Translations under genes and position numbers: made by a program
Shown here: in pieces, positions 32,584 through 48,542 of the stretch
Layout: every line of letters starts with the position of its first letter
How positions within the stretch are numbered: the stretch's first letter is position 1
The notes under the pieces: generated by a model
What the model saw: only the letters and a program-made list of their open reading frames with translations
What the model was told of the DNA's origin: nothing
Database searches by the model: none
Source of the DNA: Rhodothalassiaceae bacterium
GTDB lineage: Bacteria; Pseudomonadota; Alphaproteobacteria; Sphingomonadales; Rhodothalassiaceae
Length of the DNA: 64,000 nucleotides
Direction: 5' to 3'
NCBI GenBank assembly: GCA_026004935.1
Contig: BPKC01000001.1
Location: 186,001-250,000, forward strand

Positions 32584-32596
32584 CGCGGGCGGGCCA

Positions 32597-32638
32597 CGCC
32601 TCCCCAACGAGGCGCGTGCTCTCTGGAAGGAGAGTGAC
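32597..32638 (+). promoter_or_regulatory. serC leader RNA: two hairpins, second covers the ribosome site
   Basis: Hairpin 1: CGCCTC (32597-32602) pairs with GAGGCG (32609-32614) around a CCCAAC loop. Hairpin 2: CTCTC (32619-32623) pairs with GAGAG (32630-32634) around TGGAAG, so part of the Shine-Dalgarno stretch GGAAGGAGAG is in the stem, four bases before the serC ATG. This layout, position and class match the published serC RNA motif of alphaproteobacteria, whose ligand is unknown. Hairpins are seen in the sequence; identity with that motif is from memory. Confidence 0.65.
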
Positions 32639-33802
32639 ATGAGCGAACGACCTCTGCGCCGTCCGGCGCGGCCCCAGTTTTCGTCGGGGCCCTGCGCCAA
32701 GCGTCCGGGCTGGACGCCGGACTTCCTGAAGCACGCCCCCCTCGGCCGGTCCCACCGCTCGCGCATCGGCAAGCAGCGGCTCGAGGCCGCGATCGACCGC
32801 ACGCGTGCGCTGCTCGGCCTGCCGGAGGATTACCGGCTCGCCATCGTTCCCGCCTCGGATACCGGGGCGGTGGAGATGGCGCTGTGGAACCTGCTCGGTC
32901 CGCTTCCCGTCGATGTTCTCGCCTTCGAGAGCTTCTCGAAGACCTGGGCGGACGACATCACGAAGCATCTGAAGCTCGCCGACGTCCGGGTGCTGGAGGC
33001 GCCCTACGGCGCGCTGCCGGATCTCGATGCCGTCGATCCCGACCATGATCTCGTCTTCTGCTGGAACGGCACGACCTCGGGCGTGCGCATGCCGGACGGG
33101 GCCTTCTCATCCGCGCCGGGTGCGGGACTGAGGATCTGCGATGCGACGAGCGGGATCTTCGCCCAGCCCATCCCCGTCGACCGGCTCGATGTCGTGACCT
33201 TCTCCTGGCAGAAGGCGCTGGGGGGAGAGGCGGCGCACGGGATGCTGATCCTCTCGCCCCGGGCGGTCGAGCGGCTGCTCGCCCATGATCCGCCCTGGCC
33301 GCTGCCCAAGATCATGCGGCTGAAGAAGAAGGGCGCGCTCGACGAGGAGCTGTTCCGGGGCAGCACCATCAACACGCCCTCCATGATGTGCGTGGAGGAC
33401 TGGCTGGATGCGCTGGCCTGGGCCGAATCGCTCGGCGGGCTTCCGGCGCTGATCGCCCGCGCCGACCGGAACGCCGCCGTCCTCGACGCCTGGGTGCGCA
33501 GGACGCCCTGGATCGCGCATCTCGTGGCCGATCCCGCGATCCGCTCCAACACCTCGGTGTGCCTGAAGATCGTGGATCCCGCGGTGGCGGCGCTGCCGGA
33601 GCCGGACCAGCGCGCCTTCGTCAAGCGCCTGTGCCTGCTGCTCGAGGAGGAAGGCGTGGCCTACGACATCGCCGGCTACCGCAACGCGCCGCCGGGGCTC
33701 AGGATCTGGTGCGGGGCGACGGTGGAGGCCGAGAATGTCGCCGCCCTCGGCCCCTGGCTCGACTGGGCCTTCCATGAGACGAAGGCCGCGCTCGTCTCCT
33801 GA
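32639..33802 (+). CDS. serC: Phosphoserine transaminase
   Basis: 387 residues, class V aminotransferase of the alphaproteobacterial subtype (RPQFSSGPCAKRPGW at the N-terminus). It converts 3-phosphohydroxypyruvate and glutamate to phosphoserine, and also serves pyridoxal phosphate synthesis. The PLP lysine is in TFSWQKALGGEAAHG near residue 192. It is the first gene of serC-serA, 57 bp upstream of serA, and is preceded by a leader RNA. Confidence 0.95.
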   Translation: MSERPLRRPARPQFSSGPCAKRPGWTPDFLKHAPLGRSHRSRIGKQRLEAAIDRTRALLGLPEDYRLAIVPASDTGAVEMALWNLLGPLPVDVLAFESFSKTWADDITKHLKLADVRVLEAPYGALPDLDAVDPDHDLVFCWNGTTSGVRMPDGAFSSAPGAGLRICDATSGIFAQPIPVDRLDVVTFSWQKALGGEAAHGMLILSPRAVERLLAHDPPWPLPKIMRLKKKGALDEELFRGSTINTPSMMCVEDWLDALAWAESLGGLPALIARADRNAAVLDAWVRRTPWIAHLVADPAIRSNTSVCLKIVDPAVAALPEPDQRAFVKRLCLLLEEEGVAYDIAGYRNAPPGLRIWCGATVEAENVAALGPWLDWAFHETKAALVS

Positions 33803-46047: not shown

Positions 46048-47544
46048 ATGACGGTCGATCAGGTGCTGGAATCGCTGGGGCTCGATCCGCAGGCGCTGAA
46101 CACGGGCGACCGGCCGGTGCGCTCGCCGATCGACGGGCGGGTGTTCGCGCATGTGGCGGACGACACGGCCGAGACCCTCGACGCCAGGATCGCCCGCGCC
46201 GCCGAGGCCTTCCGCGCATGGCGGATGGTGCCGGCGCCGAGACGCGGCGAGCTGATCCGCATCTTCGGCAACGTCCTGCGCGCCCACAAGGAGGCGCTGG
46301 GGCGGCTGGTGACCATCGAATGCGGCAAGATCCTGGAGGAGGGCCGCGGCGAGGTCCAGGAGATGATCGACATCTGCGATTTCGCGGTGGGGCTCTCGCG
46401 CCAGCTCTACGGGCTGACCATCGCCTCCGAGCGGCCGCATCACGCCATGCGCGAGATCTGGCATCCGCTGGGGCCGATCGGGGTGATTTCGGCCTTCAAC
46501 TTCCCCGTCGCGGTCTGGGCCTGGAACTTCGCGATCGCGATCGTGTGCGGCGATCCGGTGGTCTGGAAGCCCTCGGAGAAGACGCCGGTCACCGCGCTCG
46601 CCTGCCGGCGGCTGTTCGAGAAGGCGCTCGCGGAGTATGGAGAGGCGCCGGAGGGATTGATGGAGGTGGTGATCGGCGGGCGCGAGATCGGCGAGAGGCT
46701 CGCGGACGATCCGCGCCTGCCGCTGATCTCGGCCACCGGCTCCTGCCGCATGGGCCGCGCCGTGGGCCCCAGGGTCGCGGCCCGCATGGGCCGCGCGCTG
46801 CTGGAGCTGGGCGGCAACAACGCGATCATCGTGGCACCCTCCGCCGATCTCGATCTCGCCGTGCGTGCGATCACCTTCGGCGCGGTGGGCACCGCCGGCC
46901 AGCGCTGCACCACGACGCGCCGGCTGATCGTCCACGAATCCGTCCATGACGCACTGCTCGCGCGCCTGAAGAAGGCCTATGAGAGCATCTCCATCGGCAA
47001 TCCGCTCGAAGGCCATCTCGTCGGCCCGCTGATCGACCGCGCGGCGTATGAGGCGATGGAGGCGGCGCTCGATCGCGCCCGGGCCGAGGGCGGCGTCGTC
47101 TTCGGCGGCGGCCGGGTTCTCGCCGATCAATATCCCGAGGCCTATTATGTGCGGCCCGCGATCGTCGAAATGCCGGAGCAGAAGGGCATCATGCTGGAGG
47201 AGACCTTTGCGCCGATCCTCTATGTGGTGCGCTACCGCGAGCTCGAGGAGGCGATCGCGCTCAACAACGCCGCCGCCCAGGGCCTGTCGTCGGCGATCTT
47301 CACGAACGACCTGCGCGAGGCCGAGCTCTTCGTCTCGCCCATCGGCTCGGACTGCGGCATCGCCAATGTCAACATCGGCACATCGGGTGCCGAGATCGGC
47401 GGCGCCTTCGGCGGCGAGAAGGAGACCGGCGGCGGGCGCGAATCGGGCTCGGACGCCTGGAAGGCCTACATGCGGCGGATGACGACCACCGTGAACTACG
47501 GCCGCGACCTGCCGCTCGCCCAGGGGATCCGGTTCGAGGTCTGA
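46048..47544 (+). CDS. amaB: Alpha-aminoadipate semialdehyde dehydrogenase (ALDH7 family)
   Basis: 498 residues. The fold has the family motifs FNFPVAVWAWNFAIA, WKPSEKTP, ELGGNNAIIV with the general base, and the nucleophilic cysteine in AGQRCTTTRR near residue 287. The C-terminal block TSGAEIGGAFGGEKETG and SGSDAWKAYMRR is characteristic of ALDH7A1/AmaB, which oxidises alpha-aminoadipate semialdehyde to alpha-aminoadipate in lysine breakdown and in osmoprotection. Third gene of the operon; AAGGGAGCGCGAAG precedes ATG 46048. Confidence 0.93.
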   Translation: MTVDQVLESLGLDPQALNTGDRPVRSPIDGRVFAHVADDTAETLDARIARAAEAFRAWRMVPAPRRGELIRIFGNVLRAHKEALGRLVTIECGKILEEGRGEVQEMIDICDFAVGLSRQLYGLTIASERPHHAMREIWHPLGPIGVISAFNFPVAVWAWNFAIAIVCGDPVVWKPSEKTPVTALACRRLFEKALAEYGEAPEGLMEVVIGGREIGERLADDPRLPLISATGSCRMGRAVGPRVAARMGRALLELGGNNAIIVAPSADLDLAVRAITFGAVGTAGQRCTTTRRLIVHESVHDALLARLKKAYESISIGNPLEGHLVGPLIDRAAYEAMEAALDRARAEGGVVFGGGRVLADQYPEAYYVRPAIVEMPEQKGIMLEETFAPILYVVRYRELEEAIALNNAAAQGLSSAIFTNDLREAELFVSPIGSDCGIANVNIGTSGAEIGGAFGGEKETGGGRESGSDAWKAYMRRMTTTVNYGRDLPLAQGIRFEV

Positions 47545-47675
47545 CGACCGGTCCGGCGGCCTCTCCCCTCGTCAGCTGCCGCCACCGCGTCATGGGTTCG
47601 CCGATCAATTCGGCGAACGACGTATCGGTCATCGGTGATCGGAATGGCCGGCGCCACTCGGCACTCCCTTTCCAC

Positions 47676-47867
47676 GTCATCCACCGCCTTGACCGGCGGA
47701 TCCGGCCCCTCTCCTCGTCATCCGCCGGCTTGACCGGCGGATCCGGCCCCTCTCCTCGTCATCCGCCGGCTTGACCGGCGGATCCAGCCCCTCTCCTCGT
47801 CATCCGCCGGCTTGACCGGCGGATCCGGCCCCTCTCCTCGTCATCCGCCGGCTTGACCGGCGGATCC
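47676..47867. repeat. 41-bp tandem array of head palindromes
   Basis: Five head palindromes spaced exactly 41 bp apart (47676, 47717, 47758, 47799, 47840), each separated by the same GGCCCCTCTCCTC-type spacer with G/A changes. The near-identity of spacers indicates recent tandem expansion. Confidence 0.9.
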
Positions 47868-48203
47868 AGCAGGAAGCGGGGCCAATCCCGAGCGCCGGGC
47901 TTGTCTTCGCCAGCGCACGGGTTCGCCGGTGCAGCGGCAGGGGAAGCAACCCCAGGCGCCCGGACCGACACGCATGGCGGCTGGATTCGCCGCTTTCGCG
48001 GCGAATGACGAAAATGTGAGCGTCATCCGCCGGCTTGACCGGCGGATCCAGCAGGAAGCGGGGCCAATCCCGAGCGCCGGGCTCGTCTTCGCCAGCGCAC
48101 GGGTTCGCCGGTGCAGCGGCAGGGGGAGCAACCCCAGGCGCCCGGACCGACACGCATGGCGGCTGGATTCGCCGCTTTCGCGGCGAATGACGAAAATGTG
48201 AGC
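47840..48203. repeat. 182-bp direct duplication
   Basis: 47840-48021 and 48022-48203 are direct repeats that differ, by eye, at only two positions (T to C near 47902/48084 and A to G near 47944/48126). Each runs from a head palindrome to a tail palindrome and ends AAAATGTGAGC. Confidence 0.9.
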
Positions 48204-48442
48204 GTCATCCGCCGGCTTGACCGGCGGATCCAGCAGGAAGCGGGGCCGGCGTCCGGCCTTGGCGCGGGCGCGGCCGCCTCATGGGTTCGCCGCATCTGCC
48301 GGCGAACGACGAAATAAGATAGCGTCACCCGCCGGCTTGACCGGCGGATCCAGCAGGAAGCGGCGCAACCACGGGCGTCGGAGCTGCATGCACCCTCGGC
48401 CGGGTTCGCCGCATCTGCCGGCGAACGACGCCGGAGGGGCGC
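48204..48442. repeat. Two diverged 119-120 bp repeat units
   Basis: 48204-48323 and 48324-48442 share the head palindrome plus AGCAGGAAGCGG and the tail palindrome with an ATCTGC loop, but have different middles. Remnants of the head core follow at 48443 and 48470. Confidence 0.85.
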
Positions 48443-48542
48443 GTCACCCGCCTCTGCGAACCTCCAATTGTCACCCGCCGCTGCGTTCGCCCCCAAGGGA
48501 AAACTGACCACCGATGACCGATGACCGAAGGCCGATGACCGG

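Follow-up and report, generated by a model that had tools for sequence, protein, structure and literature searches.

REPs of the types CGTC-1 to CGTC-4 have much in common with the repeats described here: a CGTC tag at one end, a CCA tail, a 9-bp stem starting with A-T, a 5-nt loop of the CTTGA type (or a 4-nt loop), and an organization in head-to-head dimers, commonly heterodimers, of conserved spacer length. They are mostly alphaproteobacterial, lie in intergenic DNA near 3′ ends, and have no dedicated transposase (Di Nocera 2013, PMC3733652). Assignment to this superfamily is based on an unpaired CGTC (or TGTC/CCTC) tag, an 8-9-bp stem, and a 4-5-nt loop (PMC3733652). Rickettsia RPE-4 and RPE-6 belong to CGTC-4 and Neisseria dRS3 to CGTC-1 (Di Nocera 2013, PMC3733652); by tag, stem, and tail they fall in the same superfamily as our repeats, and their stem sequences are expected to differ from ours. 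How CGTC REPs spread was stated as an open question in 2013 (PMC3733652).

The RAYT-associated GTAG REPs, REPINs, and BIMEs (Nunvar 2010, PMC2817692; Bertels and Rainey 2011, PMC3116915) are likewise short, tagged, alternating palindromes that reach high copy number and form dimers. Unlike these, the repeats described here do not carry a GTAG tag and reside in a genome without a RAYT/Y1 gene. A further resemblance is to the CcrM-associated repeats of Caulobacter (Chen and Shapiro 2003), which, in the account given by a later review (PMC10969869), are alphaproteobacterial and strictly intergenic.

Results

Organization of the array

The window, a stretch of 64,000 nucleotides, corresponds to G000:C1:186001-250000, where G000 denotes the 2.9-Mb source genome, assembled in two contigs. 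The array at 47593-48541 of the window is wholly intergenic, in the interval where a sequence-only reading had placed it, between an aldehyde dehydrogenase gene (PF00171, 46048-47544, + strand) and a convergent nitronate monooxygenase gene (PF03060, 48543-49508, − strand), which end at 47544 and 48543, respectively. Eight head palindromes start on the + strand at 47676, 47717, 47758, 47799, 47840, 48022, 48204, and 48324. Their start-to-start spacings of 41, 41, 41, 41, 182, 182, and 120 bp reproduce the three spacing classes noted in that reading (four of 41, two of 182, and one of 120 bp). Five tail palindromes lie on the − strand, inverted relative to the heads, the last three spaced by 118-119 bp, and the core that heads and tails had been said to share in inverted orientation is seen as GTCRYYCGCC...GGCGRRYCC.

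From the left, the array opens with tail palindrome 1, GTCGTTCGCCGAATTGATCGGCGAACCCA (47593-47621, −), and a 7-bp tandem repeat, ATCGGTCATCGGTGATCGG (47624-47642), that is inverted relative to its right-hand counterpart. A tandem array of five heads follows (47666-47870, +), whose 41-bp period consists of a head and a pyrimidine-rich CCCTCTCCTC leader. Head 1 (47676-47704, +) is degenerate, with three mismatches, and heads 2, 3, and 4 occupy 47717-47745, 47758-47786, and 47799-47827 (all +). Head 5 (47840-47868, +) has the 9-bp stem ATCCGCCGG/CCGGCGGAT, the loop CTTGA, the tag CGTC, and the tail CCA. The first copy of the 182-bp unit (47839-48020, +) is composed of a head, a 113-nt spacer, tail palindrome 2 (47982-48009, −, GAAA loop type), and a purine-rich spacer; the second (48021-48202, +) holds head 6 (48022-48050, +) and tail palindrome 3 (48164-48191, −, GAAA loop type). 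The two copies, previously described as differing at about two positions, differ at exactly two, 47902 (T/C) and 47944 (A/G). On that count the duplication can fairly be called recent, though the likeness of the copies could also be maintained by gene conversion. Within this unit, the long spacer (47869-47981; copy at 48051-48163) reads GGGTTCGCCGG and then a second spacer-like stretch. Judged from its sequence, the spacer looks like it contains half a T arm, which would fit two dimers joined by a deletion that took out their inner arms, with duplication of the fused unit afterwards.

The right-hand part contains the two canonical head-to-head heterodimer units of the array, unit A (48203-48311, +; head 48204-48232, tail 48282-48310) and unit B (48323-48430, +; head 48324-48352, tail 48401-48429). 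Two degraded half-heads, GTCACCCGCCTCTGCG and GTCACCCGCCGCTGCG (48443-48485, +), come next, and a 7-bp tandem repeat of the GATGACC type (48505-48541) abuts the stop codon of the nitronate monooxygenase gene. An Rfam search of the array returned no family match. Elsewhere in the window, a serC leader RNA (RF00517) was recognized at 32587-32639 (+) with 57.6 bits.

Dispersal through the genome

A genome-wide count of the head pattern with at most three mismatches gave 651 sites (342 forward and 309 reverse), whereas the reversed-pattern control at the same threshold gave 0, so the head pattern of the window is not a product of chance and the core is not confined to this locus. A replichore orientation bias of the heads was considered and dropped, the strand totals being 342 and 309. 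Density and clustering were taken from an even sample made up of 20 segments, each 20 kb long (400 kb in total), in which 160 head or tail palindromes form 31 clusters; this extrapolates to about 1,160 palindromes on the chromosome. The same scan found 2 matches in 80 kb of shuffled sequence and no palindromes in the second contig (12.6 kb). Statistics on fetched stretches rest on 844 kb including the window, or 29% of the genome, of which the second sampling batch is biased, having been chosen partly from forward-strand matches. About 7% of palindromes in this larger sample (25/363) fall inside predicted genes, the largest arrays in the 844 kb reach 21 palindromes, and many heads are identical between different loci. 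A run of 100 N inside the contig (G000:C1:2119281-2119380) represents either a gap in the assembly or masked sequence, and the array copy numbers of the assembly are thus uncertain.

Compared with published CGTC REPs, clusters dominate in this genome, with 146 of the 160 palindromes in clusters of at least three, and same-orientation head pairs in tandem at 39-44 bp are frequent (31 in the even sample). In contrast, clusters are rare outside Neisseria and Wolbachia and same-orientation tandems are negligible in the published families (PMC3733652), a descriptive trend with stated exceptions and not a defining feature. The arrays of G000 also differ in being interleaved with 7-bp tandem repeats.

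The dimer unit

Among 118 facing neighbor pairs with outward tags, 111 lie 76-79 bp apart (85/90 H+T− pairs and 26/28 T+H− pairs in the 844 kb), unlike the spacing between units, which can be anything between 40 and about 200 bp. The dispersed unit is therefore a head-to-head heterodimer of about 107 bp with its CGTC tags pointing outward. It reads CGTCAYCCGCCGG-CTTGA-CCGGCGGRTCCAGC, followed by a loosely conserved spacer of about 45-50 nt and by a T arm in inverted orientation that ends in ...CGGCGAAYGACG. The palindromic elements RIME and Bru-RS, of about 100-106 bp, have a similar two-palindrome layout.

Each arm is a 9-bp hairpin, and the T arms are of two types, one with a 5-nt loop and one with a GAAA loop. 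Columns 1-4 of the unit alignment are CGTC in 76 of 77 units and TGTC in the remaining one. Many units have C as stem base 2 and many T arms have G as base 1, where the published start is A-T. Both sides of a stem pair had changed in 75 cells, and neither this count nor the covariation score was reached in any of 500 shuffles, while slid controls gave no signal. These compensatory changes support the 9-bp hairpin as the structure read from the alignment, although kinship among the sequences can also exceed shuffles. The folding of the unit is stable (z −3.3). A GANTC methylation site is present in 37 of the 77 units, its presence following an A-T/G-C swap in the T arm; a GANTC/CcrM role was rejected on this count, the site not being conserved.

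The tag, the stem, loop, and CCA, the head-to-head dimers, and, within the enzyme families searched, the lack of an associated transposase are all found in G000. Overall, the window array is an array of CGTC-tagged REP heterodimers; it belongs to a known superfamily and is unusual within it for its density and clustering.

Gene context and local amplification

Clusters occupy convergent gaps in 25 of 47 cases compared with 107 of 548 adjacent gene pairs (p = 3e-7), and in 9 of 19 cases in the even batch alone; genes outside the window were called by a simple home-made codon-usage finder, and the test took no account of gap length. A similar convergent bias has been published for REPs. This strong bias and the position at gene 3′ ends would fit a selected function, in which the paired hairpins serve as bidirectional terminators or as stabilizers of mRNA 3′ ends and were amplified for that purpose, and the stable folding and compensatory changes point the same way. 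The bias also fits tolerance at sites where insertions are least harmful, however, and arrays of up to 21 palindromes surpass any need for a terminator.

Spacers at least 95% identical are found in 33% of within-cluster unit pairs but in 0 of 400 between-cluster pairs, which, together with the tandem repetition at 41 and 182 bp, indicates amplification in place. Of the reading first made from the window, what is supported is a REP/BIME-like family that has expanded and dispersed, lies mostly in intergenic DNA, and shows recent duplications in place.

Tandem runs of the 7-bp repeats (GATSACT/GACCGAT type) accompany the arrays: in the 844 kb, each of the 14 runs detected is no more than 73 bp from a REP array, and arrays with 100-bp flanks make up only 4.6% of that sequence. 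On G000:C1, besides the two runs at the ends of the window array, such runs are at 488858, 849727, 1087930, 1088111, 1220564, 1321114, 1541289, 1542490, 1900343, 2043953, 2181036, 2185773, 2402660, and 2468449. Similar heptamers occur in the draft genome of the same genus, some of them near contig ends, and in kind these repeats resemble the heptanucleotide repeats of cyanobacteria.

Distribution among relatives

The exact head had no match in five genomes from other genera of the family. In the same-genus draft (G004) its single match lies where a contig begins and has a T arm at a distance of 78 bp; the unit is therefore no younger than the genus. Breaks between contigs may have cost this draft some of its copies; the genes that flank the window array sit on different contigs in it. 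A covariance model of the unit found matches with genome-specific stems in 25 of the 30 genomes searched, including dimers with other stems, some in arrays, in a related genus (17 and 54 matches in its two genomes with such dimers). Many further class genomes had dimers as well. Two arrays of the related genus (G001:C5:156687-160241 and G001:C3:96785-99100) have different stems (ACCCCCGGA/ATTCCCGGG) in the same heterodimer layout with 66-bp spacing. A generic CGTC pattern was present in 50 of 385 class genomes, with 540 sites in G000 and 82 in the next highest.

On contig C188 of G005, a genome from another genus of the family, a collinear stretch lacks an array that G000 has at C1 about 2.18 Mb (~2,179,580-2,180,991), an array other than that of the window; the homologous flanks are 83 bp apart in G005 compared with 1710 bp in G000. 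The two genomes are 73-80% identical here, which is too low for reading insertion boundaries or target duplications. Either the lineage of G000 gained this array or G005 lost it; the relatives that lack copies make the gain probable. An array-free site of 83 bp, along with copy numbers that range from 0 to hundreds among relatives, argues against selection for termination or 3′-end stabilization as the driver of amplification, which we consider unlikely. Plasmid records gave only weak matches, in Streptomyces and Kitasatospora, which were judged to be chance.

Candidate mobilizing enzymes

The sequence-only reading had tied the array both to intergenic dispersion and to RAYT transposases; the dispersion is real, whereas a RAYT-like gene is absent and the link to RAYTs is not supported. 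A profile search for Y1_Tnp (PF01797) gave no match and no first-look candidate in G000, with control genomes positive, and no match in G001, G002, G003, G004, or G006; on this search, which took in 36 relatives in all, a RAYT/Y1 mobilizer was rejected for G000. In favor of a family mobilized as REPs or REPINs by a RAYT whose gene is now lost or carried elsewhere, the BIME-like alternating palindromes, with their tetranucleotide tag and head-to-head dimers, resemble REPINs, and one related-genus genome (G005) does have a Y1_Tnp gene. However, G001 and G003 carry dimers with no Y1_Tnp, the gene shows no association with the repeats across 30 class genomes (3/15 CGTC-rich and 3/15 CGTC-free), the tag is CGTC and not GTAG, and a published survey found CGTC repeats to have no transposase gene associated with them (Di Nocera 2013, PMC3733652). 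Taken together, these points make such a RAYT origin highly unlikely.

Two rve-domain genes are present in G000, encoding an IS-type transposase of ~328 aa and a Mu-like transposase beside a MuB-like ATPase; neither is bracketed by the repeats, and both were rejected as mobilizers. The Mu-like transposase gene and the following gene for the MuB-like AAA ATPase (G000:C1 about 2214750-2217860) are a probable Mu-like prophage, and REP arrays begin about 0.8 kb beyond these genes. IS110/Piv-type enzymes act at Neisseria dRS3 and were searched for on that ground; neither an IS110/Piv-type recombinase nor a DDE_Tnp_1 transposase was found genome-wide in G000. The absence of Y1_Tnp, IS110, and DDE_Tnp_1 agrees with the conclusion of Di Nocera 2013; the search covered these families and rve, and an enzyme of another family may supply the activity.

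Copies could also spread between arrays by recombination or gene conversion, without transposition. If this were the main route, with no recent transposition, the repeats would be a decaying remnant family, consistent with the lack of an enzyme among the families searched, with inner stems shared by the arms within a genome, as in concerted evolution, and with the suggestion that CGTC families may be going extinct (Di Nocera 2013, PMC3733652). Against it stand the copies at many different intergenic sites, the array that a related genus lacks at a collinear position, and the many heads still identical across loci, and we hold this explanation to be very improbable.

Asymmetry of the dimer arms

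Heterodimers prevail in some CGTC families, a preference said to have "no obvious explanation," and protection from SbcCD-type cleavage has been proposed (Di Nocera 2013, PMC3733652). We compared the arms of 77 dimers from 27 other genomes, transcribed among the matches listed for a pattern that left the arm stems open. Only 1 of these 77 listed dimers has identical arms, whereas random within-genome re-pairing predicts 16.4 (sd 3.5, minimum 5 in 2,000). At stem positions 1-9 the arms differ in 0, 21, 56, 37, 8, 2, 7, 6, and 36 of the 77 listed dimers, respectively; position 9 often differs under random re-pairing too (29/77). Likewise, the two arms are never identical among 112 units of G000, all of which differ at position 3.

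DNA folding of the 60 units of G000 in which all 18 base pairs can form gave two hairpins a lower energy than one long cross-paired hairpin in 55 cases (mean −24.5 and −20.9 kcal/mol, respectively). When the T arm was replaced in silico by a perfect copy of the H arm, the long hairpin won in 60 of 60 (−40.4 kcal/mol). The folding models therefore favor two hairpins over a single long one when the arms differ, mainly next to the tag. As far as the papers cited here show, this stem-position pattern adds to the published remark on heterodimers, and the protection idea is that of Di Nocera et al.

Discussion

The account that we regard as probable is that the repeats are CGTC-REP dimers mobilized in trans by an enzyme other than a Y1/RAYT protein, amplified locally in tandem, and kept different in their two arms. 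Dimers of ~107 bp would insert as nonautonomous elements into the gaps that follow genes at their 3′ ends, above all between convergent genes. The activity would be supplied in trans by an enzyme that is not a Y1/RAYT protein of G000 and that may since have been lost. Once on site, the unit and parts of it, such as the 41-bp single-head and 182-bp modules, would multiply by replication slippage or by unequal recombination among palindromes that are nearly identical, as the near-identity of the tandem copies leads us to infer. Keeping the H and T arms different beside the tag would make two hairpins more stable than a long cross-paired one, and this asymmetry may serve to shield the element from palindrome-cleaving nucleases, to preserve the form that is recognized, or both.

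A broader reading, which we put forward tentatively and consider rather doubtful, is that CGTC-REP dimers throughout the Alphaproteobacteria are one asymmetric mobile element, with a left and a right end told apart by stem positions 2-4 and an inner stem acting as a lineage-specific recognition code, moved by an enzyme other than a Y1/HUH RAYT that acts on the two-hairpin form. If this were true, the mobilizing enzyme would best be looked for in a genome such as G000, which has about a thousand copies.

The near-absence of matched arms among the dimers listed from 27 genomes turns the remark on heterodimer preference into a testable rule. G000 carries roughly a thousand copies, has arrays specific to its lineage, and lacks a Y1 transposase; it thus speaks against RAYT mobilization and offers a tractable system in which to study the mechanism by which CGTC REPs spread.
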